Of a stretch of 64,000 nucleotides of DNA, positions 3,454 to 57,315 are shown piece by piece (within the stretch, counting starts at the first letter, position 1; the number at the start of each line of letters is the position of its first letter). Both the position numbers and the translations under genes were made by a program. The DNA is from an uncultured Kiloniellaceae bacterium. GTDB taxonomy: Bacteria; Pseudomonadota; Alphaproteobacteria; Kiloniellales; Kiloniellaceae. Where the stretch lies: the NCBI GenBank assembly GCA_947493695.1, contig CANLSF010000007.1:186001-250000 (forward strand), read 5' to 3'. The notes beneath the pieces were generated by a model. The model saw only the letters and a program-made list of their open reading frames with translations. It did no database searches and was not told the DNA's origin.

Positions 3454-3933
3454 CTCTTCGCTCTGTCGAAGTATGTTGTCAGCAAATTTATGGTCGTTTT
3501 GGCCGGTGATGAGGTAATCCTCTCGCCGAAAAACAATAATAGCTCAATGATAGCAAAACACACGCGACCCACAAAGCAGCAATCACCAACATTTACTTGC
3601 AGTTGTTGGAATTTTATTAACAAATAATCGAAGACAATGTCGTCATTCACTCCCACCAACAGCATTTTCAGAGTGTAACTATCTAAAAACGCGAGATCTC
3701 CAGGCGACGCGAGGTCTGTATACGCATCATTTTCGAGGCAGGCAGATCAACCAAAGCGGCTGAGCTCTGGCACGCCCCGGCAGAGTTAGCACACAACCAA
3801 TCAGACAAAAAACAGATGCAAAAATGCCCCAAAGGCCCGGGCGGTGGATACATCTCTGCGGGATAACAAGCCCTTGGGAGGGTGAAACGGCTCAGCTTGT
3901 TCGTCTCCGCGCGGCGACTCTCTCAGAAATAAT

Positions 3934-3949
3934 TTGACCAAATGGACAG
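3934..3949 (+). promoter_or_regulatory. RutR-type operator upstream of hydA
   Basis: The sequence TTGACCAAATGGACAG matches the E. coli RutR box TTGACCANNTGGTCAA at 14 of 16 positions. It matches the box upstream of preT in this window (minus-strand reading) at 15 of 16. Its TTGACC half can serve as a -35 element, with GATGAT at 3958-3963 as a weak -10 (18-bp spacer), so bound repressor would block the promoter of the downstream hydantoinase/dihydropyrimidinase gene. Function is inferred. Confidence 0.72.
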
Positions 3950-3981
3950 GTTTCCGGGATGATTAAAAAAAACCGGAAACC
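3949..3981 (+). repeat. Perfect 9-bp inverted repeat upstream of hydA
   Basis: GGTTTCCGG (3949-3957) and CCGGAAACC (3973-3981) are perfect inverted arms around a 15-base A-rich loop. It abuts the RutR-type box. There is no T-run after the second arm, so it is not a standard terminator. It could be a second protein-binding site or a leader hairpin. Confidence 0.5.
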
Positions 3982-4182
3982 AAGGTGGCCAACGCCAGGA
4001 TCAGTCGGCGGTCGGATAGCCAATTCATCCTGTTCTCAGCACCTTGAAACAACAGCATCCGGCTTCGTGTCGAAAAAGGTCATTCAACGATCAAATGAAT
4101 GGCGCTGCGTACGCACACCATAGTGAGACGCTGGGGTGAGTGTAGGGGAAAGCGCAGTGATTCTGACGGAGAATGGATCTAA

Positions 4183-5670
<1,488 letters not shown>

Positions 5671-48071: not shown

Positions 48072-49073
48072 TTACTTGCCTTTGGACATGTTCCAGACGG
48101 CATGGGTCCAGGCACCTTCAGGCGCCTTGGTGATCACCGGCGTAGAAGCATTGCCCAGCAACACGTCGACCGTGCGCTGATAATCGGCGGGGTCGAGGAA
48201 GCCGATGCCCTTTTCGGAGCCGGCAACCAGCTTGTTGATCTCGCCAACCATACGCTTCTGGTGCTTTTCGGTCTGTGCACCGGTCGCATCGTTTTCGAGC
48301 ACGATATCAGCGGCTTCTTCAGGATTTGCAGCAGCATATTCCCAGCCTTTTACCGATGCTGCAACGAACTTGGCCATCTTCGAGACGAAAGCCTCGTCCT
48401 TGAGGTTCTCTTCCATGACATAGAGGCCGTCTTCCAGTGTGGCGACGCCCTGGTCTTCATACTTGAACACCAGAAGATCGTCCGGGGTCAGGCCCGCGTC
48501 GATAATCTGCCAATACTCGTTGTAGGTCATGGTGGAAACGCAGTCGGCCTGCTTCTGCAGGATCGGGTCGACGTTGAAGCCCTGTTTCAGGACCGTCACA
48601 CCGTCTGCGCCACCTTCAGTCGGCAGACCGAGTTTGCTCATCCAGCTCAGGAAAGGATACTCGTTGCCGAAGAACCAGACGCCCAGCGTGCGGCCTTTGA
48701 AGTCGGCGGGTGATTTGATGCCGGAGTCCTTGCGACAGGTCAGCATCATGCCCGAGGTCTTGAAGATCTGCGCGATGTTGACAAGCGGCACACCCTTTTC
48801 CCGTGATGCCAGCGCCGACGGCATCCAGTCGACGACCACATCGGCGCCGCCACCTGCAATCACTTGAGGCGGTGCAACATCAGGCCCACCCGGCTTGATC
48901 GTGACGTCGAGACCGGCCTCTTCATAGAAGCCCTTGTCCTTGGCCACATAGTAGCCCGCAAACTGTCCCTGGGTGACCCACTTGAGCTGCAGTGTCACTT
49001 CCTCTGCGGCCTGCGCTGCAAAGGCCGACAAACCGACCGCGGCAGCGGCGGCGAGCAATGTAATTTTTTTCAT
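48072..49073 (-). CDS. ABC transporter substrate-binding protein (NMT1/THI5-like), probable pyrimidine importer
   Basis: A 333-residue periplasmic binding protein. Signal peptide ~1-20 (AAAVGLSAFAAQAA). The mature start VTLQLKWVTQGQFAGYYVAKDKGFYEEAGLDV and later PGGPDVAPPQVIAGGGADVVVDW are typical of NMT1/ThiY-type receptors for pyrimidine-like ligands. ATG 49073 has AGGAGAGG upstream. As last gene of an operon with preTA and an amidohydrolase gene, its ligand is inferred to be uracil, thymine or dihydropyrimidines rather than thiamine precursors. Confidence 0.88.
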   Translation of the reverse strand: MKKITLLAAAAAVGLSAFAAQAAEEVTLQLKWVTQGQFAGYYVAKDKGFYEEAGLDVTIKPGGPDVAPPQVIAGGGADVVVDWMPSALASREKGVPLVNIAQIFKTSGMMLTCRKDSGIKSPADFKGRTLGVWFFGNEYPFLSWMSKLGLPTEGGADGVTVLKQGFNVDPILQKQADCVSTMTYNEYWQIIDAGLTPDDLLVFKYEDQGVATLEDGLYVMEENLKDEAFVSKMAKFVAASVKGWEYAAANPEEAADIVLENDATGAQTEKHQKRMVGEINKLVAGSEKGIGFLDPADYQRTVDVLLGNASTPVITKAPEGAWTHAVWNMSKGK

Positions 49074-49189
49074 TAAACCTCTCCTGTTATTATCCCTGCA
49101 GGTCGATCCGGCGTTTTGCGGGACCCACCCTTTTGTCCAGTCGCTTCTTAATTGCTTCGTTGTCTTTTTTTGGCGCCGACCGGTTTGTC

Positions 49190-50326
49190 TTACCCTCCCC
49201 TGCGCCGATAAGAAGGATGCCAGAAGGTCAGGCTGCGTTCCAGCATCGCCAGTCCTCCATAAAAGAGTGACCCAGAGAGCGCGGCAATCGCAATCGTCGC
49301 CCAAACCAGATCTACGTTCATCCGCCCGACCTCAGTCGAGATCCGAAAGCCCATGCCGACAATCGGAGTCCCAAAGAACTCCGCCACGATGGCGCCAATC
49401 AATGCCAGCGTCGAGTTGATCTTCAGGGCATTAAAGATAAACGGCAAGGCCGATGGCAGGCGCAGCAGCAAAAGCGTCTCAAAGTAACTCGCCGCGTAGG
49501 ATCGCATCAGATCCCGCTCCATCCGTCCGGACGCCGCCAGGCCTGCGATTGTGTTCACCAGCATGGGGAAGAAGGTCATGATGACCACCACCGCCGCCTT
49601 GGATTGCCAGTCGAAACCAAACCACATGACCATCACCGGCGCGATGCCGACGATAGGAATGGCGCTGACGAAATTCCCCAGCGGCAGCAAACCGCGTTGC
49701 AGAAACGGCACGCGGTCAACAAGAACCGCAACCAGCAAACCGGCCCCGCAACCCATCAGGTAACCGGGAATGACCGACTTGATAAAGGTCTGATAGAAAT
49801 CAGCCCACATGGTACCGGTGCTGCCGCCCATCACTTCCCCGATTGCACTCGGTGAAGGCAGCAGCACGCGCGGCACCCCAAACCCCTCAACCAGAACCTG
49901 CCAGAGGTACAGGAGCCAGAACCCGAAGACGGCGGGGACCAGCAAGGCATAGAGTGTATTGGTTTTCGACGACGCGCTGCGCAGCTCCGACATCAGCGCC
50001 ATGGCCCGCCAGGCGAAGAACGCGAGCGCAAAAAGATAAATCCAAAGACCGATACCCAGCCCCAGGCCGGATACTCCCTCTCCAGCGCCATCAACGGCAG
50101 CCAGTGGCACATAGGCACCGGCGAGTAATCCCGCGACCGCGACACCCGCCGCCAGATCGCCGCCTCGCTGATTCCAGAGACACCAGATCGCCGAAAGAAA
50201 GGTAATGCTCAGAGCCAAGGTCGCAGATACATCGCTGAACCAGTTGTGCCCACCGCCGATATCAACAAGGATGCCCAGCGCGGCAATCAGGATGAAAACC
50301 ACAAGGGAATTGATGCGCAGGGTCAT
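49190..50326 (-). CDS. ABC transporter permease (ThiX/SsuC type) with N-terminal extension
   Basis: A 378-residue permease. The last ~240 residues are a BPD_transp_1 domain with PSAIGEVMGG and the coupling motif SYAASYFETLLLLRLPSALPFIFNALKI. The first ~135 residues add three or four extra hydrophobic segments. Its start overlaps the previous permease stop (ATGA). It forms a heteromeric channel with the neighbouring permease. Confidence 0.9.
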   Translation of the reverse strand: MTLRINSLVVFILIAALGILVDIGGGHNWFSDVSATLALSITFLSAIWCLWNQRGGDLAAGVAVAGLLAGAYVPLAAVDGAGEGVSGLGLGIGLWIYLFALAFFAWRAMALMSELRSASSKTNTLYALLVPAVFGFWLLYLWQVLVEGFGVPRVLLPSPSAIGEVMGGSTGTMWADFYQTFIKSVIPGYLMGCGAGLLVAVLVDRVPFLQRGLLPLGNFVSAIPIVGIAPVMVMWFGFDWQSKAAVVVIMTFFPMLVNTIAGLAASGRMERDLMRSYAASYFETLLLLRLPSALPFIFNALKINSTLALIGAIVAEFFGTPIVGMGFRISTEVGRMNVDLVWATIAIAALSGSLFYGGLAMLERSLTFWHPSYRRRGG

Positions 50327-51276
50327 CCCGCACCTCCCGCTTGGACCACACCCATTCTGCGCAACACAAATTTCTCTGCCAATCCGACGAGCGCGACCAG
50401 CAAACCGGCCAGGATCGAGGCTGTGACCAGCGCCGACCAGATCTGGATGGTCTGCCCGTAGTAAGAACCGACCAGCAGACGCGCGCCGATGCCCGCCTGC
50501 GCACCGGTCGGCAGTTCACCGACAATGGCGCCGACAAGGCTGATCGCAATCGCAACCTTCAGGCTGGCGAAGAGGAAAGGCACCGATGAAGGCCAGCGCA
50601 GTTTCCAGAAGACCTGTGAAGTCGAAGAGCTATAGGTCCGCATCAGATCAAGCTGCAGCGGGTCCGGCGAACGCAAGCCCTTGACCATGCCGATGGTCAC
50701 CGGGAAGAAGCAGAGATACATGGAGATGATCGATTTTGGCACCAGTCCGGTCAAACCGATGGCCCCCAGCACAACAATAATCATCGGCGCGATGGCCAGG
50801 ATCGGAATGGTCTGGGAGGCGATTACCCAGGGCATCAGGCTTTTATCCAGAGCCTTTACGTGAACGATACCAACCGCGAGCAACATGCCCAGCGTCGTGC
50901 CCATGGCAAAACCCAGCAGGGTCGAGGAAATCGTCACCCAGGAGTGATATACCAGACTGCGCTTGGAAGTAATCTTCTTACCGAAAATGGTGTTGTTCAT
51001 CTCGATCAAGACCTGATGAGGCGCCGGCAGGATCGGCCGCTCCATCGCCCAGGCATCATCCGTGAGCTTGGAGAAATTCCATTCGGTGTCGTTGCGCTCG
51101 TAGCCGTCGATCAGACGCGGCGCGTTGAGATAAACCGCACCGGCGTACCAGATCACGACGATCAACAGTAGCATCAGGCCAACCGGACCGACCTTTCCGC
51201 TCATTGCGCGCGACAGCAAGCCCGGCTGCCGAACCGCAGGCGCCGAGGTGACTGGGTCGGCAACCTCAGTCGTCAT
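50323..51276 (-). CDS. ABC transporter permease (ThiX/SsuC type)
   Basis: A 317-residue permease: the first membrane segment is [18 protein letters not shown], and the EAA-type coupling loop is [36 protein letters not shown] 51276 overlaps the ATPase stop by several bases. It partners the second permease and the ATPase as the membrane half of an NMT1-type importer. Confidence 0.9.
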
Positions 51277-52099
51277 AGCTGTGCCCTGCCCGCAAGCCCT
51301 CACGCACCCGGTGCGCGATCTCCAGAAACTCGGGTGTCTCACGCGCGTCCAAGGTCCGGTCGGGTGGCAGGTTGCAATCGATCACATCGATGATTCGTCC
51401 GGGACGCGGCGACATCACGACGATCTTCGAAGAAAGAAAAACCGCTTCGGGAATGGAGTGCGTGACGAAGACAACGGTCTTTTGGGTCTTTTCCCAAAGC
51501 CGCAGCAGCTGCTCATTCAGATGATCACGGGTGATCTCGTCCAGCGCTCCGAAGGGCTCGTCCATCAACAGCAGGTCCGGTTCGAAGCTGAGCGCACGGG
51601 CGATGGAGACCCTTTGCTGCATACCGCCGGAGAGCTGCCAGGGAAATTTCTTTTCGAAGCCCTTCAGATTGACCATTTCGATGTAGCGAGCCGCACGTTC
51701 TTGCTGCTCCGTTTGAGACAAGCCCATGATTTCCAGCGGCAGGGTCACGTTGCGGTCAACCTGACGCCAGGGATAAAGCGCCGGTGCCTGAAAGACGTAG
51801 CCGTAAGCGCGGTTCAAACGTGCCTCGCGCGGCGAAACCTTATTGACGGTGATATCGCCCTCGGTCGGCTGTTCCAGATCCGCGATCACCCGCATCAGGG
51901 TGGTCTTGCCGCAGCCCGAGGGGCCGATGAAAGATACAAATTCGCCCTGTTCGATCGTCAGGTTGACGTTCGACAGGGCGTAAACAGGTCCGTCAGCTGT
52001 CTGAAAAGTCAACGACAGCTGATCGGTTTTAACCACGGAGTTTCCCGCGCTCCGATCCACCGCCGCAGCGGGTTCGGCTTTCACGGCCACATTCTGCAT
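51266..52099 (-). CDS. ABC transporter ATP-binding protein (nitrate/sulfonate/pyrimidine type)
   Basis: A 277-residue ATPase: Walker [11 protein letters not shown]-loop in [12 protein letters not shown], signature LSGGMQQRV, Walker [13 protein letters not shown] and switch His in VTHSIPEAV. It is of the SsuB/TauB/ThiZ class. ATG 52099 has GAGG upstream. It lies between the amidohydrolase gene and the two permeases on the same strand. Confidence 0.94.
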
Positions 52100-52211: not shown

Positions 52212-53444
52212 TCAAAGAGTGGCGCGTGCGACCATTGCCTGCAGCAGCACATTACAGCCGGCCGCCAGATCTTCCGGCGTCGCGTTCTCGACCTCGTTGT
52301 GGCTGATGCCGTCTTCGCAAGGCACGAAGATCATGCCGGTCGGTGCTACACGGCTGATATAGCAGGCATCATGTCCGGCCCCGGAGATGATATCCCGGTG
52401 CGCAAAGTTCTCACTCTCGGCCCCGCCGCGCACGGCGCTTACGCAATCGGCGTCAAAGGCGATCGGCGGCGAATACCAGATCTCCTTGAGATCCAGCTCC
52501 AGGCCGTCTTCAGCACAAACCTTCTCGCAGATTTCAGTCAGTTCAGCCGCCATGGCCGACAGCGCTTCGTCCTCGGGATTGCGCAGATCGACCGCAAAGA
52601 AGACCTCACCGGGAATGGTGTTGCGCGAGTTCGGACTGACCTGCATCAGACCGACCGTTGTGACCGCATTCGGCGCGTGCTTCATGGCAATGTCGTTGAT
52701 CGCGGTGACCACTTTCGACGCTCCGAGCAGCGCATCCTTGCGACGGTTCATCGGAGTCGTCCCGGCATGGGATTCGGCACCGGTCATGGTGACTTCGAAC
52801 CAGCGCTGGCCCTGCGCGCCGGTGACCACACCGATGGTCTTTTCCTCGGCTTCCAGGATCGGGCCCTGCTCGATATGAGCCTCAAAGAAGGCGCGGATCT
52901 CACGACCGCCCACAGGCTCGCTGCCCTTGTAGCCGATGCGCTCCAGTTCCTCCCCCATGGTCTTGCCGTCCAGGTCGGCCCGGCTGTGACCGTATTCCAG
53001 ATCGAACACGCCGGCGAAGACGCCGGAGGCCACCATAGCCGGGGCAAAGCGCGAGCCTTCCTCGTTGGTCCAGACCGAGGCCTCGATGGGTGCATCTGTC
53101 TCGATGTTAAAATCGTTGAGGGTACGAATGACTTCGAGACCGGCGAGCACGCCGTAAACTCCGTCGAACTTGCCACCGGTCGGCTGAGTATCCAGGTGAC
53201 TGCCGGTCATGACAGGCGCGAGGCTGTCGTCCTTGCCCGGACGGCGTGCGAAGATGTTGCCCATCTGATCGACCTTGATCGTGCAACCGGCCTCCTTGCA
53301 CCAGCTTACGAAAAGATCCCGCCCTTCCTTGTCCAGATCGGTCAAAGCCAGGCGGCAGTTCCCGCCCTTTTCCGTGGCGCCGATCTTGGCCATCTCCATA
53401 AGGCTGTCCCAAAGGCGATCGCCGTTAACCCGCATATTCTGCAT
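52212..53444 (-). CDS. hyuC: M20-family N-carbamoyl amidohydrolase (beta-ureidopropionase/allantoate amidohydrolase type)
   Basis: A 410-residue binuclear zinc hydrolase. Metal ligands are visible as H83 and D94 (GSHLDTQPTGGKFDG), E129 (TNEEGSRF), H190 (EAHIEQGP) and the C-terminal His in GISHNEVE. This class cleaves N-carbamoyl amino acids to amino acid, CO2 and ammonia. Between preA and the importer genes it should perform the last step of reductive pyrimidine breakdown (N-carbamoyl-beta-alanine to beta-alanine). Related enzymes act on allantoate or L-carbamoyl amino acids, so assignment rests on context. Confidence 0.88.
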   Translation of the reverse strand: MQNMRVNGDRLWDSLMEMAKIGATEKGGNCRLALTDLDKEGRDLFVSWCKEAGCTIKVDQMGNIFARRPGKDDSLAPVMTGSHLDTQPTGGKFDGVYGVLAGLEVIRTLNDFNIETDAPIEASVWTNEEGSRFAPAMVASGVFAGVFDLEYGHSRADLDGKTMGEELERIGYKGSEPVGGREIRAFFEAHIEQGPILEAEEKTIGVVTGAQGQRWFEVTMTGAESHAGTTPMNRRKDALLGASKVVTAINDIAMKHAPNAVTTVGLMQVSPNSRNTIPGEVFFAVDLRNPEDEALSAMAAELTEICEKVCAEDGLELDLKEIWYSPPIAFDADCVSAVRGGAESENFAHRDIISGAGHDACYISRVAPTGMIFVPCEDGISHNEVENATPEDLAAGCNVLLQAMVARATL

Positions 53445-53550: not shown

Positions 53551-54828
53551 TTATTCCGCCGCCTTGATGTTCGCCGGATTACGCGGATCCTGCAACCAGT
53601 TCATGTAGGGCTTGCCGTTGTCGACCTCGACCATGGTGATACAGTCGTCGACGGGACAGGCCAGCATGCAGAGATTACAGCCGACACATTCCGGCACGTT
53701 GACCTCATAGTGCCGCTTGCCCTCGACACGGTTTGCGAAGATCGCCTGATGCGAAGTGTCTTCGCAGGCCACATGACAGAGACCGCATTTGATGCAGAGG
53801 TCCTGGTTGATCTCGGCCACGCACTCATAGTTCATGTCGAGCTGGTTCCAGTTGACCACGTTCGGAACCGCCGCACCGCGGAAGTCGTCCAGGGTTTTGT
53901 AACCCTTGGAATCCATCCAGTTCGACAGCCCGTCCGCCATGTCTTCGACGATCTTGAAACCGTAGTGCATAGCCGCCGTACAGACCTGCACGGATCCCGA
54001 ACCAAGCGAAATGAACTCAGCGGCATCGCGCCAGTTACTTACACCGCCGATGCCGGAGATCGGAATGTTCTGACAGTCCGGATCGCGGGCAATCTCCGCC
54101 ACCATGTTCAGAGCAATGGGTTTGACCGCCGGTCCGCAATAACCACCGTGCGCGCCCTTGCCACCAACGATGGGGGTCGGCGCCATGGCGTCAAGATCGA
54201 CAGTGACGATGGAGTTGATGGTGTTGATCAGGGAGACCGCGTCGGCTCCGCCCGCTGTCGCCGCGCGTGCGGGATGCAGGATGTTGGTGATGTTGGGCGT
54301 CAGCTTCACGAAGACCGGCATGCGCGTGTACTTCTTGCACCAGCGCGTGACCATCTCGATGTACTCTGGAACCTGCCCGACGGCGGAGCCCATACCGCGC
54401 TCCGACATTCCGTGCGGACACCCGAAGTTGAGCTCGACCGCATCGGCGCCTGTGTCTTCCACCAGCGGCAGGATGCGTTTCCAGCTCTCTTCTTCGCAGG
54501 GCACCATCAGGGAGACGACCATGGCCCGGTCCGGCCAGTCGCGCTTGACCTGTTTGATCTCGCGCAGGTTCACTTCCAGCGGTCGGTCGGTGATCAGCTC
54601 AATGTTATTGAAGCCGGCCATGCGAGTGCCGTTGTAGTTGATCGCCCCGTAACGTGACGAGACATTGACCACAGCCGGGTCCTCACCGAGGGTTTTCCAG
54701 ACCACGCCGCCCCAGCCCGCCTTGAAGGCGCGCACGACGTTGTATTCCTTGTCGGTCGGTGGCGCGGACGCCAGCCAGAAGGGATTGGGAGATTGCACAC
54801 CGGCAATGTTGCAACGAAGATCAGCCAC
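53551..54828 (-). CDS. preA: NAD-dependent dihydropyrimidine dehydrogenase, subunit PreA
   Basis: A 425-residue flavo-iron-sulfur subunit that reduces uracil/thymine to the dihydro forms. An FMN TIM barrel like dihydroorotate dehydrogenase occupies ~1-315 (NPFWLASAPPTDKEYNVVRAF, LNFGCPHGMSERGMGSAVGQ with the catalytic Cys region). Two 4Fe-4S clusters follow in CIKCGLCHVAC and CVGCNLCMLACP (~343-400). The start is GTG 54828 with GAGG upstream. It pairs with PreT, encoded just upstream. Confidence 0.95.
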   Translation of the reverse strand: MADLRCNIAGVQSPNPFWLASAPPTDKEYNVVRAFKAGWGGVVWKTLGEDPAVVNVSSRYGAINYNGTRMAGFNNIELITDRPLEVNLREIKQVKRDWPDRAMVVSLMVPCEEESWKRILPLVEDTGADAVELNFGCPHGMSERGMGSAVGQVPEYIEMVTRWCKKYTRMPVFVKLTPNITNILHPARAATAGGADAVSLINTINSIVTVDLDAMAPTPIVGGKGAHGGYCGPAVKPIALNMVAEIARDPDCQNIPISGIGGVSNWRDAAEFISLGSGSVQVCTAAMHYGFKIVEDMADGLSNWMDSKGYKTLDDFRGAAVPNVVNWNQLDMNYECVAEINQDLCIKCGLCHVACEDTSHQAIFANRVEGKRHYEVNVPECVGCNLCMLACPVDDCITMVEVDNGKPYMNWLQDPRNPANIKAAE

Positions 54829-54916: not shown

Positions 54917-56266
54917 TCAAGCACGCAGACGCCGGTCGATGGCCACAGCGGCAAGCTTGCCGTCCTGAACCGCTGCGACCGTCAGATCGTCTCCGACAAC
55001 ACAGTCGCCACCGGCCCAGACATCCGGCAGCGAAGTCTGACGATCTTCGTTGACCGCGATCCGGCCCCCGGCAAGCTCCAGCACGTCAGCAGAACCATTC
55101 ACCAGCGGTGTCGGCACGAAGGTCTGTCCGATTGCCTTGAAGACCTGATCCACCAGCAGGGTGAAGTGATCGCCTGTACCCATCAGACGACCGTTGTCGT
55201 CAAGCTGCGTATACTCGAACTCGATCTCCTTCACCTGGCCGTCCTTGCCGATCAGTCTGGTCGGCTGGGCCCAGTGCTTGATCTTCACGCCGTTAAGCTG
55301 CGCGAAGTCCTGCTCGTGCCAGGTGGCGTTCATGTTGTCCTTGCCGCGCCGGTAGACCAGCGTGACATCTTCCGCACCGAGACGCTTTGTCTGGACTGCG
55401 ATGTCGATAGCTGTATTGCCGCCGCCGATCACCACGACCTTTCGGCCCACGGGGAGTTTCGAAAAGTCGCCGCTCTGGCGCAGTTCGGCAATGTAGTCCA
55501 CCGCATCGACAACGCCTGCAAGGTCTTCGTTCTCAAGACCCAGCGCATTGACGCCCGACATCCCCATGGAGAGGAAGACCGCATCGTAATCTCGGCGCAG
55601 ATCGCTGAGCGAGAAATCCGTGCCGATCGCCTGCCCGCAGCGCAGTTCGATACCTCCGAGCGAGAGGATGAATTCCACTTCCCGCTGCGCGAAATCGTGC
55701 GGCACCTTGTAGGCGGCAATGCCGTATTCATTCAGACCGCCGACCTTGTCGCGCGCCTCGAACACAACGACATCATGACCCAGCATCGAGAGTCGATGGG
55801 CGGCGGAGAGACCTGCGGGACCGCCGCCGACAACCGCGACCGTTTTGCCGCTCGATGCGGCTCGCTCGAAGACCTGCGCATCGCTTTCAAAAAGCCGGTC
55901 CGTGGCGTAGCGCTGCAGCTCACCGATCTTGACCGGCTTTTCTTCCTGCGTATTTCGGACGCAATCCCCCTCGCAGAGAATTTCAGTTGGGCAGACCCGC
56001 GCACAGGCGCCGCCCATGATGTTCTCGCTCAGGATATCGACCGCCGAGCCCTTGACGTTGTCGGTCGCGATCTTGCGGATGAAACTTGGAATGTCGATGC
56101 CGGTCGGGCAAGCCTCGACACAGGGCGCATCGTAGCAGTAATAGCAGCGCGACGCCTCGATCACCGCACGCTTGCGGTCAAGCGGAGGATGTACATCGTT
56201 GAAGTTTTCGATGTAGTCGTCAGGACGCAGCCGTCCTGCCTGGATATCAGCAGAAGCCGTCATCAT
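54917..56266 (-). CDS. preT: Dihydropyrimidine dehydrogenase, subunit PreT
   Basis: A 449-residue NAD(P)H/FAD subunit resembling the small subunit of glutamate synthase. The N-terminal Fe-S domain has CYYCYDAPCVEACPTGIDIP (~41-60) and CARVCPTEILCEGDC. The FAD site is VAVVGGGPAGLSAA (~144-157) and the NAD(P) site VVVIGGGNTAIDIA. It passes electrons from NAD(P)H to PreA. First gene of the operon; a RutR-type box lies 88 bp upstream. Confidence 0.94.
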   Translation of the reverse strand: MMTASADIQAGRLRPDDYIENFNDVHPPLDRKRAVIEASRCYYCYDAPCVEACPTGIDIPSFIRKIATDNVKGSAVDILSENIMGGACARVCPTEILCEGDCVRNTQEEKPVKIGELQRYATDRLFESDAQVFERAASSGKTVAVVGGGPAGLSAAHRLSMLGHDVVVFEARDKVGGLNEYGIAAYKVPHDFAQREVEFILSLGGIELRCGQAIGTDFSLSDLRRDYDAVFLSMGMSGVNALGLENEDLAGVVDAVDYIAELRQSGDFSKLPVGRKVVVIGGGNTAIDIAVQTKRLGAEDVTLVYRRGKDNMNATWHEQDFAQLNGVKIKHWAQPTRLIGKDGQVKEIEFEYTQLDDNGRLMGTGDHFTLLVDQVFKAIGQTFVPTPLVNGSADVLELAGGRIAVNEDRQTSLPDVWAGGDCVVGDDLTVAAVQDGKLAAVAIDRRLRA

Positions 56267-56616
56267 TCGGTCCCAGTATGTCTCTGTTCAAACGTGTTCT
56301 TGTGGCCGAGTCTTTTGCCCGGCCCTGTTATTGATGAAAAGGTTAGTCAAATTCTGACCATTTGGTCAACTTTTTTAATCACGCGATATTTTATGTTTGA
56401 TATCAACACTCTAATTATTGCGAACGCGTCGCATTATTACTTGAAATCATCCCTTTCACGCGAAATGATGCCGCATCCAATCTCTCAGTCAGAGAGAAGA
56501 AATTTTGCTTAGGCACGCGATGCCGCTATGCTTGTCCGGCATTGAGAGGGTGAATACGCGGAGCAACGTCGTACCAGGTTGCCTTTCATTGCACAGAGAG
56601 GAAAAGTCGGAAGCTC
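56267..56616. other. Divergent regulatory region of the pyrimidine locus
   Basis: The 350 bp between preT and the TetR gene contain the RutR-type box and an AT-rich stretch (56370-56460) but no supported gene. Confidence 0.6.
56354..56369. promoter_or_regulatory. RutR-type operator between preT and the TetR gene
   Basis: CTGACCATTTGGTCAA (minus strand TTGACCAAATGGTCAG) matches the E. coli RutR consensus TTGACCANNTGGTCAA at 15 of 16 positions. It lies between divergent preT and the RutR-like gene. On the minus strand its TTGACC can act as a -35 toward preT. Same arrangement as upstream of hydA. Confidence 0.88.
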
Positions 56617-57315
56617 ATGACCGAAGACGTAAGGCGCGAGGAAGCGCCGGGGGAATTACAAAACGGAGACAGCGGCAGCGCAAATGCCAAGGGCTCCAGC
56701 AAGACCGGCCAGATCCGCGCCCGCAACAAGGCCAGAATCATGTCTGCCGCCGAGGAAGTCTTCGCCGGGAAGGGCTACGATGGTGCAACCACGGCGGAGA
56801 TCGCGCTTAAGGCCGGACTGCCCAAGGCCAATGTGCACTACTACTTCAGCACTAAGGAAGCGATCTACCGCGCGGTCATCGACAACATTCTGGATCTTTG
56901 GCTGGAGCCCTTCCAACGCATCACCGAAGACGACGACCCAGCCGAAGCCCTGTCCATGTACATTCGAACGAAAGTCATGCTGTCTCGCGACCGTCCCCTC
57001 GCCTCGCGCATCTATGCGAACGAGATCATTCGCGGCGCGCCGATCCTCGCAGACTATCTGGGCAAGGATCTGCGCGAGTGGGTCGCGGAGAAATCCGAGG
57101 TGCTGCGCAAATGGGCTGACAAAGGCCTGATGGATCCGGTCGAGCCCGCCCATCTGCTCTTTCTGATCTGGGCCTCGACCCAGCATTACGCGGACTTTCA
57201 GGCTCAGGCCAAGGCTGTCCTGCACCACCGCGACCTGACCGAAGACGACTTCGAAACCGCCGTCGAGACCATTACCCGAGTGGTTCTGAAAGGCTGCGGG
57301 ATTAAGACGGGCTGA
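56617..57315 (+). CDS. rutR: TetR-family regulator, RutR-like
   Basis: A 232-residue regulator. An unstructured N-terminus (~30 residues) precedes the HTH (KARIMSAAEEVFAGKGYDGATTAEIALKAGLPKANVHYYF). The C-terminal domain (SRDRPLASRIYANEIIRGAPILADYLGKDL, YADFQAQAKAVL) matches the YcdC/RutR type, which binds uracil and thymine. It is divergent from preTA-hyuC-ABC, with a RutR box between, so it probably represses that operon and hydA, relieved by pyrimidines. The symbol is by similarity. Confidence 0.85.
   Translation: MTEDVRREEAPGELQNGDSGSANAKGSSKTGQIRARNKARIMSAAEEVFAGKGYDGATTAEIALKAGLPKANVHYYFSTKEAIYRAVIDNILDLWLEPFQRITEDDDPAEALSMYIRTKVMLSRDRPLASRIYANEIIRGAPILADYLGKDLREWVAEKSEVLRKWADKGLMDPVEPAHLLFLIWASTQHYADFQAQAKAVLHHRDLTEDDFETAVETITRVVLKGCGIKTG

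Follow-up and report, generated by a model that had tools for sequence, protein, structure and literature searches.

The window (the whole stretch of 64,000 nucleotides that was analysed) contains a dihydropyrimidinase gene, hydA, the preT-like and preA genes for the subunits of dihydropyrimidine dehydrogenase, and a gene for a RutR-like regulator. The coordinates of these genes and of the features discussed below are collected in Table 1. The name preT was assigned because the gene adjoins preA, its best family match being below the cut-off. Directly after the preT-preA-amidase genes, and on the same strand, an ABC transporter with an NMT1/THI5-like binding protein occupies positions 48072-52099; this transporter may be read together with those genes, as a pyrimidine uptake system.

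Table 1. Genes and sequence features of the window discussed in the text.
Feature	Position	Strand	Remarks
Conserved operator-promoter block	3923..3966	+	42/44 columns invariant in four g1 genomes
RutR-type operator of hydA (TTGACCAAATGGACAG)	3934..3949	+	present; such a box before hydA in 12/12 g1 and g5 genomes
Predicted -35 element TTGACC, inside the operator	3934..3939	+	sole sigma-70-like pair in 3700-4230; shuffle mean 0.3
Predicted -10 element GATGAT	3958..3963	+	4/6 to TATAAT, 18-bp spacer; same hexamer in 4/4 g1 genomes
hydA, dihydropyrimidinase	4216..5670	+	TIGR02033, 598.2 bits, cut-off 393.25
Hydantoinase/carbamoylase-family amidase	52212..53444	-	after preA, same strand; TIGR01879, 429 bits, cut-off 204
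preA, dihydropyrimidine dehydrogenase subunit	53551..54828	-	NF006183, 724 bits, cut-off 335
preT-like subunit, dihydropyrimidine dehydrogenase (NAD(P)-binding oxidoreductase)	54917..56266	-	best family NF009410, 344.6 bits, below cut-off 516
RutR-type operator between preT and the rutR-like gene (TTGACCAAATGGTCAG)	56354..56369	-	box here in 4/4 genomes of the window's genus
RutR-like TetR-family regulator	56617..57315	+	PF08362; sole close one in the genome

A RutR-type operator is a 16-bp inverted repeat with the pattern TTGACCANNTGGTCAA. For E. coli, the RutR box is described as palindromic and about 16 bp long (PMC10891134). The earlier note had pointed out that the box upstream of hydA matches 15 of 16 positions of the preT-side box, read on the minus strand about 52 kb away, and our scan of the window confirmed this: the preT-side box, which differs at 1 of 16 positions and lies 52.4 kb off, is the only other match to the hydA 16-mer at up to 3 mismatches. 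Such counting is weak evidence, since two or more window matches at this threshold were also obtained in 12 of 100 shuffles. With the G+C content assumed to be 60%, a simple model gives about 0.0008 one-mismatch matches to the preT box expected by chance per 64 kb, and about 5e-6 within 450 bp. Measured against the palindrome, the hydA box is off at 2 positions; of the 14 fixed letters of TTGACCANNTGGTCAA it matches 12, a level at which the genome is at background, and the preT box matches 13.

A genome scan built from the two sites, which had been proposed as a check, did not stand out from its controls at loose thresholds. When two mismatches were allowed, the pattern TTGACCAAATGGWCAG was found at 11 places in the 6.46 Mb genome against 8 for the reversed control, and the palindrome at 36 places against 36. 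Six of the 11 places, each with 2 mismatches (L004, L005, L006, L008, L009 and L011), were covered at the level of ORF tables. These scans were dropped as evidence because the reversed controls score about equally, and letter matching alone therefore proves little. At strict thresholds and across genomes the scan was specific. With at most 1 mismatch, the palindrome occurs at 4 places in the genome compared with about 0.6 expected (60% G+C assumed), the hydA box not being among them. One is in the gap that separates preT from the regulator gene; another precedes a carbon-nitrogen hydrolase gene about 11 kb ahead of the window (C7:174602); the third precedes a Bmp-type substrate-binding gene on contig C5, in a region where a cytosine deaminase gene is also found; and the fourth precedes another Bmp-type gene, on contig C4. 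The third-best genome match to the hydA box (C1:1305818, 1 mismatch) is inside a coding region unrelated to the pathway, with molybdopterin-dehydrogenase-type FAD-binding domains, and it was set aside as probably a chance match. RutR boxes outside promoters, of unknown consequence, are also reported from E. coli (PMC10891134).

The genome also encodes a dihydropyrimidinase-family paralog at C2:172721-174082 (L238, G000), which scores above the TIGR02033 cut-off and has no listed palindrome match at up to 2 mismatches within 50 kb. This paralog is probably a different hydantoinase, and as an unboxed member of the same family it provides an internal contrast that favours the hydA box as an operator.

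We judge the hydA box to be more than a chance match because it is conserved in relatives. A total of 23 genomes of the family were searched, the window's own included, and 20 of them have a hydA homolog at E of 1e-100 or lower. The box is present before hydA in all four genomes of the window's genus (called g1) and in all eight of another genus (g5), although these 12 genomes are related and do not count as independent cases. In a third genus (g4), where hydA is only 56-57% identical, no box at up to 2 mismatches was found in the 700 bp before the hydA homolog in any of the 8 genomes (one 3-mismatch site occurs), and near-perfect boxes adjoin two tandem rutR-like genes. In each of these 8 genomes (L161-L168; G006-G009, G011-G014) two near-perfect boxes precede the tandem genes, with starts 32-33 bp apart; the spacing, about three helical turns, suggests paired dimers or cross-regulation. 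We also collected 80 hydA relatives in named contigs, of which 3 were dropped and 77 had at least 100 bp upstream. A box at up to 2 mismatches occurs within up to 450 bp upstream in 9 of these 77, compared with 2 for the reversed control, a thin signal at this wider range. Genus g5 is probably Pelagibius: on contigs L034 and L036, which are named as Pelagibius, the box pairs and their distances are the same as at the g5 loci. The g5 genomes have a further conserved element, AAAAGCGGACTCGCATCG, which lies about 21-38 bp ahead of the hydA box in 8/8 (L117-L124) and is absent from the 45 bp upstream of the g1 boxes; it may belong to a different promoter or bind another regulator.

Around the conserved block of Table 1, the best non-overlapping window of 44 columns has 16 invariant columns in g1. 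The rest of the leader has diverged: over the stretch that begins 150 columns ahead of the box and stops 20 short of the ATG, 75 of 487 columns are invariant outside the fixed block, which for this count was shifted by 3 from 3923-3966 and has 39/44 invariant columns. In the window, 266 bp separate the end of the box from the hydA ATG at 4216; from box start to ATG the distance is 396 bp in one g1 genome and 281-282 bp in the other three, and the block stays with hydA. At these distances a long untranslated leader must be assumed. A structured leader RNA in the 266-bp gap was considered and rejected, as no Rfam match at E of 1 or lower was found in 3500-4300. The neighbour on the far side of the box, a PAS histidine kinase gene, is likewise kept in g1. 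We assign the box to hydA, and not to this kinase gene, because g5 has a beta-ureidopropionase-like gene on that side.

Exact matches to TTGACCANNTGGTCAR in the 23 genomes numbered 47 when counted by strand (42 distinct places), compared with 8 strand matches for the control. According to tblastn of the loci or their coordinates, all 42 places adjoin rutR/preT, the beta-ureidopropionase-like gene or the C5-type Bmp gene. The pattern TTGACCANNYGGACAR was built from the hydA boxes themselves, so that 12 of its 22 matches in the 23 genomes (6 for the control) are hydA boxes by construction; the remainder are 4 C4-type Bmp boxes and 6 unrelated places. The C4-type Bmp boxes, belonging to the four g1 genomes, turned up without being sought, and none of the 8 g5 genomes has any match besides its hydA box. 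The six places outside boxed units (C1:1305818, two in G001, and one each in G005, G007 and G011) equal the control's count and were discarded. At L198 (G001:C4:547218), a place that matches no boxed unit, TTGACCATCTGGACAA occurs, which is the same 16-mer as the C4-type Bmp box of G000.

The boxed units of g1 number five, and each carries its box in all four genomes (20/20, at up to 3 mismatches to the palindrome): hydA, preT-preA/rutR, the beta-ureidopropionase-like gene, the C5-type Bmp operon and the C4-type Bmp operon. The beta-ureidopropionase-like gene is the carbon-nitrogen hydrolase gene ahead of the window. The best solved relatives of its product are CG3027-PA and two chains named beta-ureidopropionase, and its best NCBIfam match is N-carbamoylputrescine amidase, below the cut-off. 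In view of the beta-ureidopropionase relatives, we regard it as probably the third enzyme of the pathway. Both boxed Bmp-type ABC transporter operons (L030, G000:C5, near the cytosine deaminase gene; L031, G000:C4) are candidates for pyrimidine or nucleoside uptake, given the boxes at both and the cytosine deaminase gene near the former, and this role is probable for both. In g1, the beta-ureidopropionase-like gene is about 9-20 kb from hydA, preT-rutR is 52-65 kb from hydA in the three genomes with both on one contig, and the C5-type Bmp operon is on another contig than hydA. In g5, hydA is divergent from the beta-ureidopropionase-like gene, both genes have a box, and the C5-type Bmp gene adjoins hydA (8/8).

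A single RutR-like protein is encoded in the genome; the runner-up in the search scores 27 bits. The domains of the RutR-like protein are above their gathering scores (TetR_N, 51.9 bits with a cut-off of 24; TetR_C_3, 180.2 bits with a cut-off of 25), and it aligns to E. coli RutR without gaps over 200 residues. In E. coli RutR, uracil is contacted by W77, Y97, W167, Q171 and Q179, and DNA by the lysines K52 and K62 (PMC10891134); at an offset of 18, all seven are identical in the window's protein. On the other hand, it misses both NCBIfam cut-offs for RutR (TIGR03613, 198.9 versus 368 bits; NF011584, 183.3 versus 230 bits), and no match to TIGR03612 (RutA) was found in the genome at E of 0.001 or lower. 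For these two reasons the accurate label is "RutR-like, controlling the reductive pathway". The earlier note's proposal of RutR-type control by one repressor over a split pathway is supported, with some refinements. The RutR-like protein is there, with PF08362 and the contact residues, but it is below the RutR equivalog cut-offs and RutA is absent. The pathway is split, but two loci are too few, five boxed units being present in the window's genus. Control by a single repressor is supported by comparison of the genomes, with the box at hydA in 12/12 and at the five units in 20/20.

The hydA box overlaps a predicted promoter. The combination TTGACC-18-GATGAT matches the consensus at 9 of 12 positions, where 0.3 such pairs are expected in shuffles. 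The GATGAT hexamer is not kept in g5, and the promoter reading is therefore confined to g1. Read towards the gene, positions 1-6 are TTGACC in 20/20 g1 boxes, of which 17 were collected by a pattern demanding TTGACC upstream and the other three (L206, L217 and L218) were found without it; as the preT/rutR region is divergent, the orientation of its box was chosen. The hexamers 18 bp downstream of the g1 boxes match TATAAT at only 3 or 4 of 6 positions, yet within a given unit they resemble one another. In the window, the predicted -10 element stands between the arms of an inverted repeat at 3949-3981, GGTTTCCGG / CCGGAAACC, which is only partly kept in the other three g1 genomes.

Our interpretation, which we hold with high confidence on sequence grounds, is that the hydA box serves as a uracil-released operator for the RutR-like repressor (56617-57315), which would control the five boxed units together. 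A repressor dimer would bind the 16-bp imperfect inverted repeat at hydA, and the gene-distal half TTGACC would double as the -35 element, so that RNA polymerase would be blocked. The operator would extend over the -35 element and into the spacer, and since the box overlaps the predicted -35, repression by occlusion is the simplest reading and a likely one. Uracil, as the presumed inducer, would bind the repressor, which would leave the DNA and allow hydA to be transcribed. Through boxes of their own, the preT-preA genes, the beta-ureidopropionase-like gene and the two Bmp-type transporter operons would be released alongside hydA. Most departures from the palindrome are in the gene-proximal half, as would be expected if the other half serves two functions.

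The presumed direction of regulation could also be the opposite, with the regulator binding the hydA box as an activator or anti-repressor, much as E. coli RutR raises carAB expression indirectly through blocking PepA (PMC10891134). The distance of the hydA box from the ATG and its departure from the palindrome would suit such a role, but in g1 the box covers the predicted -35, favouring occlusion. It is also general knowledge that a substrate-induced catabolic gene fits repression, and PydR, a RutR-like protein, represses the dehydrogenase gene of P. putida according to a cited title (Hidese et al. 2012, via PMC7332683). We therefore consider activation improbable. Even less probable, in our view, is that the conserved block is merely the hydA promoter and that its likeness to a RutR box comes from TTGACC as the -35 element plus chance. 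TTGACC as the upstream half in 20/20 g1 boxes, 17 of them collected by requiring it, and the likeness, within each unit, of the hexamers 18 bp downstream would both agree with this. However, 12/12 genomes retain (T or C)GGACA as the gene-proximal half although it would lie in the spacer, and the g5 box persists amid different surrounding sequence. As for a purely accidental match at hydA, the two-mismatch scans of the window's genome are indeed at background, but retention at hydA in 12/12 g1 and g5 relatives already contradicts it, and the box is the sole genome-wide match to its pattern in 8/8 g5 genomes; we give this explanation almost no weight.

One letter of the hydA operator deserves attention. 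In the gene-proximal half, GGACA stands in place of GGTCA (T13A) in the hydA and C4-type Bmp boxes of g1 (8/8) and in the hydA box of g5 (8/8), whereas the other three boxed units keep T13 in g1 (12/12). This conserved off-palindrome letter is the one unusual feature of the system. Either drift was tolerated here and inherited once per unit, or a lower-affinity operator has been kept. That the hydA operator is tuned rather than decayed, with one repressor acting on graded operators and releasing them at different uracil levels, is a tentative idea that we think somewhat unlikely.

When compared with known systems, the window's regulator is similar to E. coli RutR in belonging to the TetR family with a PF08362 C-terminal domain and in having a 16-bp palindrome-type box. 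It is different in being predicted to act on the reductive pathway and on uptake systems, the E. coli RutR box being that of the rutA and carA operators. Because it is below the RutR cut-offs and RutA is absent, its predicted targets resemble those of P. putida PydR more. By its title, as cited in PMC7332683, the paper of Hidese et al. (2012) describes PydR as a RutR-like repressor of the dihydropyrimidine dehydrogenase gene; as in that title, the window's regulator is RutR-like and associated with the reductive pyrimidine pathway, and its predicted regulon spans five boxed units. Across Proteobacteria, RutR regulons for pyrimidine catabolism, with taxon-specific motif changes, have also been predicted (Leyn et al. 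2016, PMC5343134; in RegPrecise), the prediction covering 68 genomes from 13 taxonomic groups. Among the literature matches listed, no title or abstract opening deals with hydA of this lineage as a RutR target. Control of the reductive pathway by a RutR-like protein is already known (P. putida PydR), and the hydA case is an ordinary, well-supported extension of a known type of regulon.

For a little-studied lineage, the result is a testable regulon. The pathway is partly clustered in one genus, where the beta-ureidopropionase-like gene, hydA and the Bmp gene adjoin, and dispersed in another, with an operator for each piece. If the operators are graded, they would set an order of induction among the scattered units.
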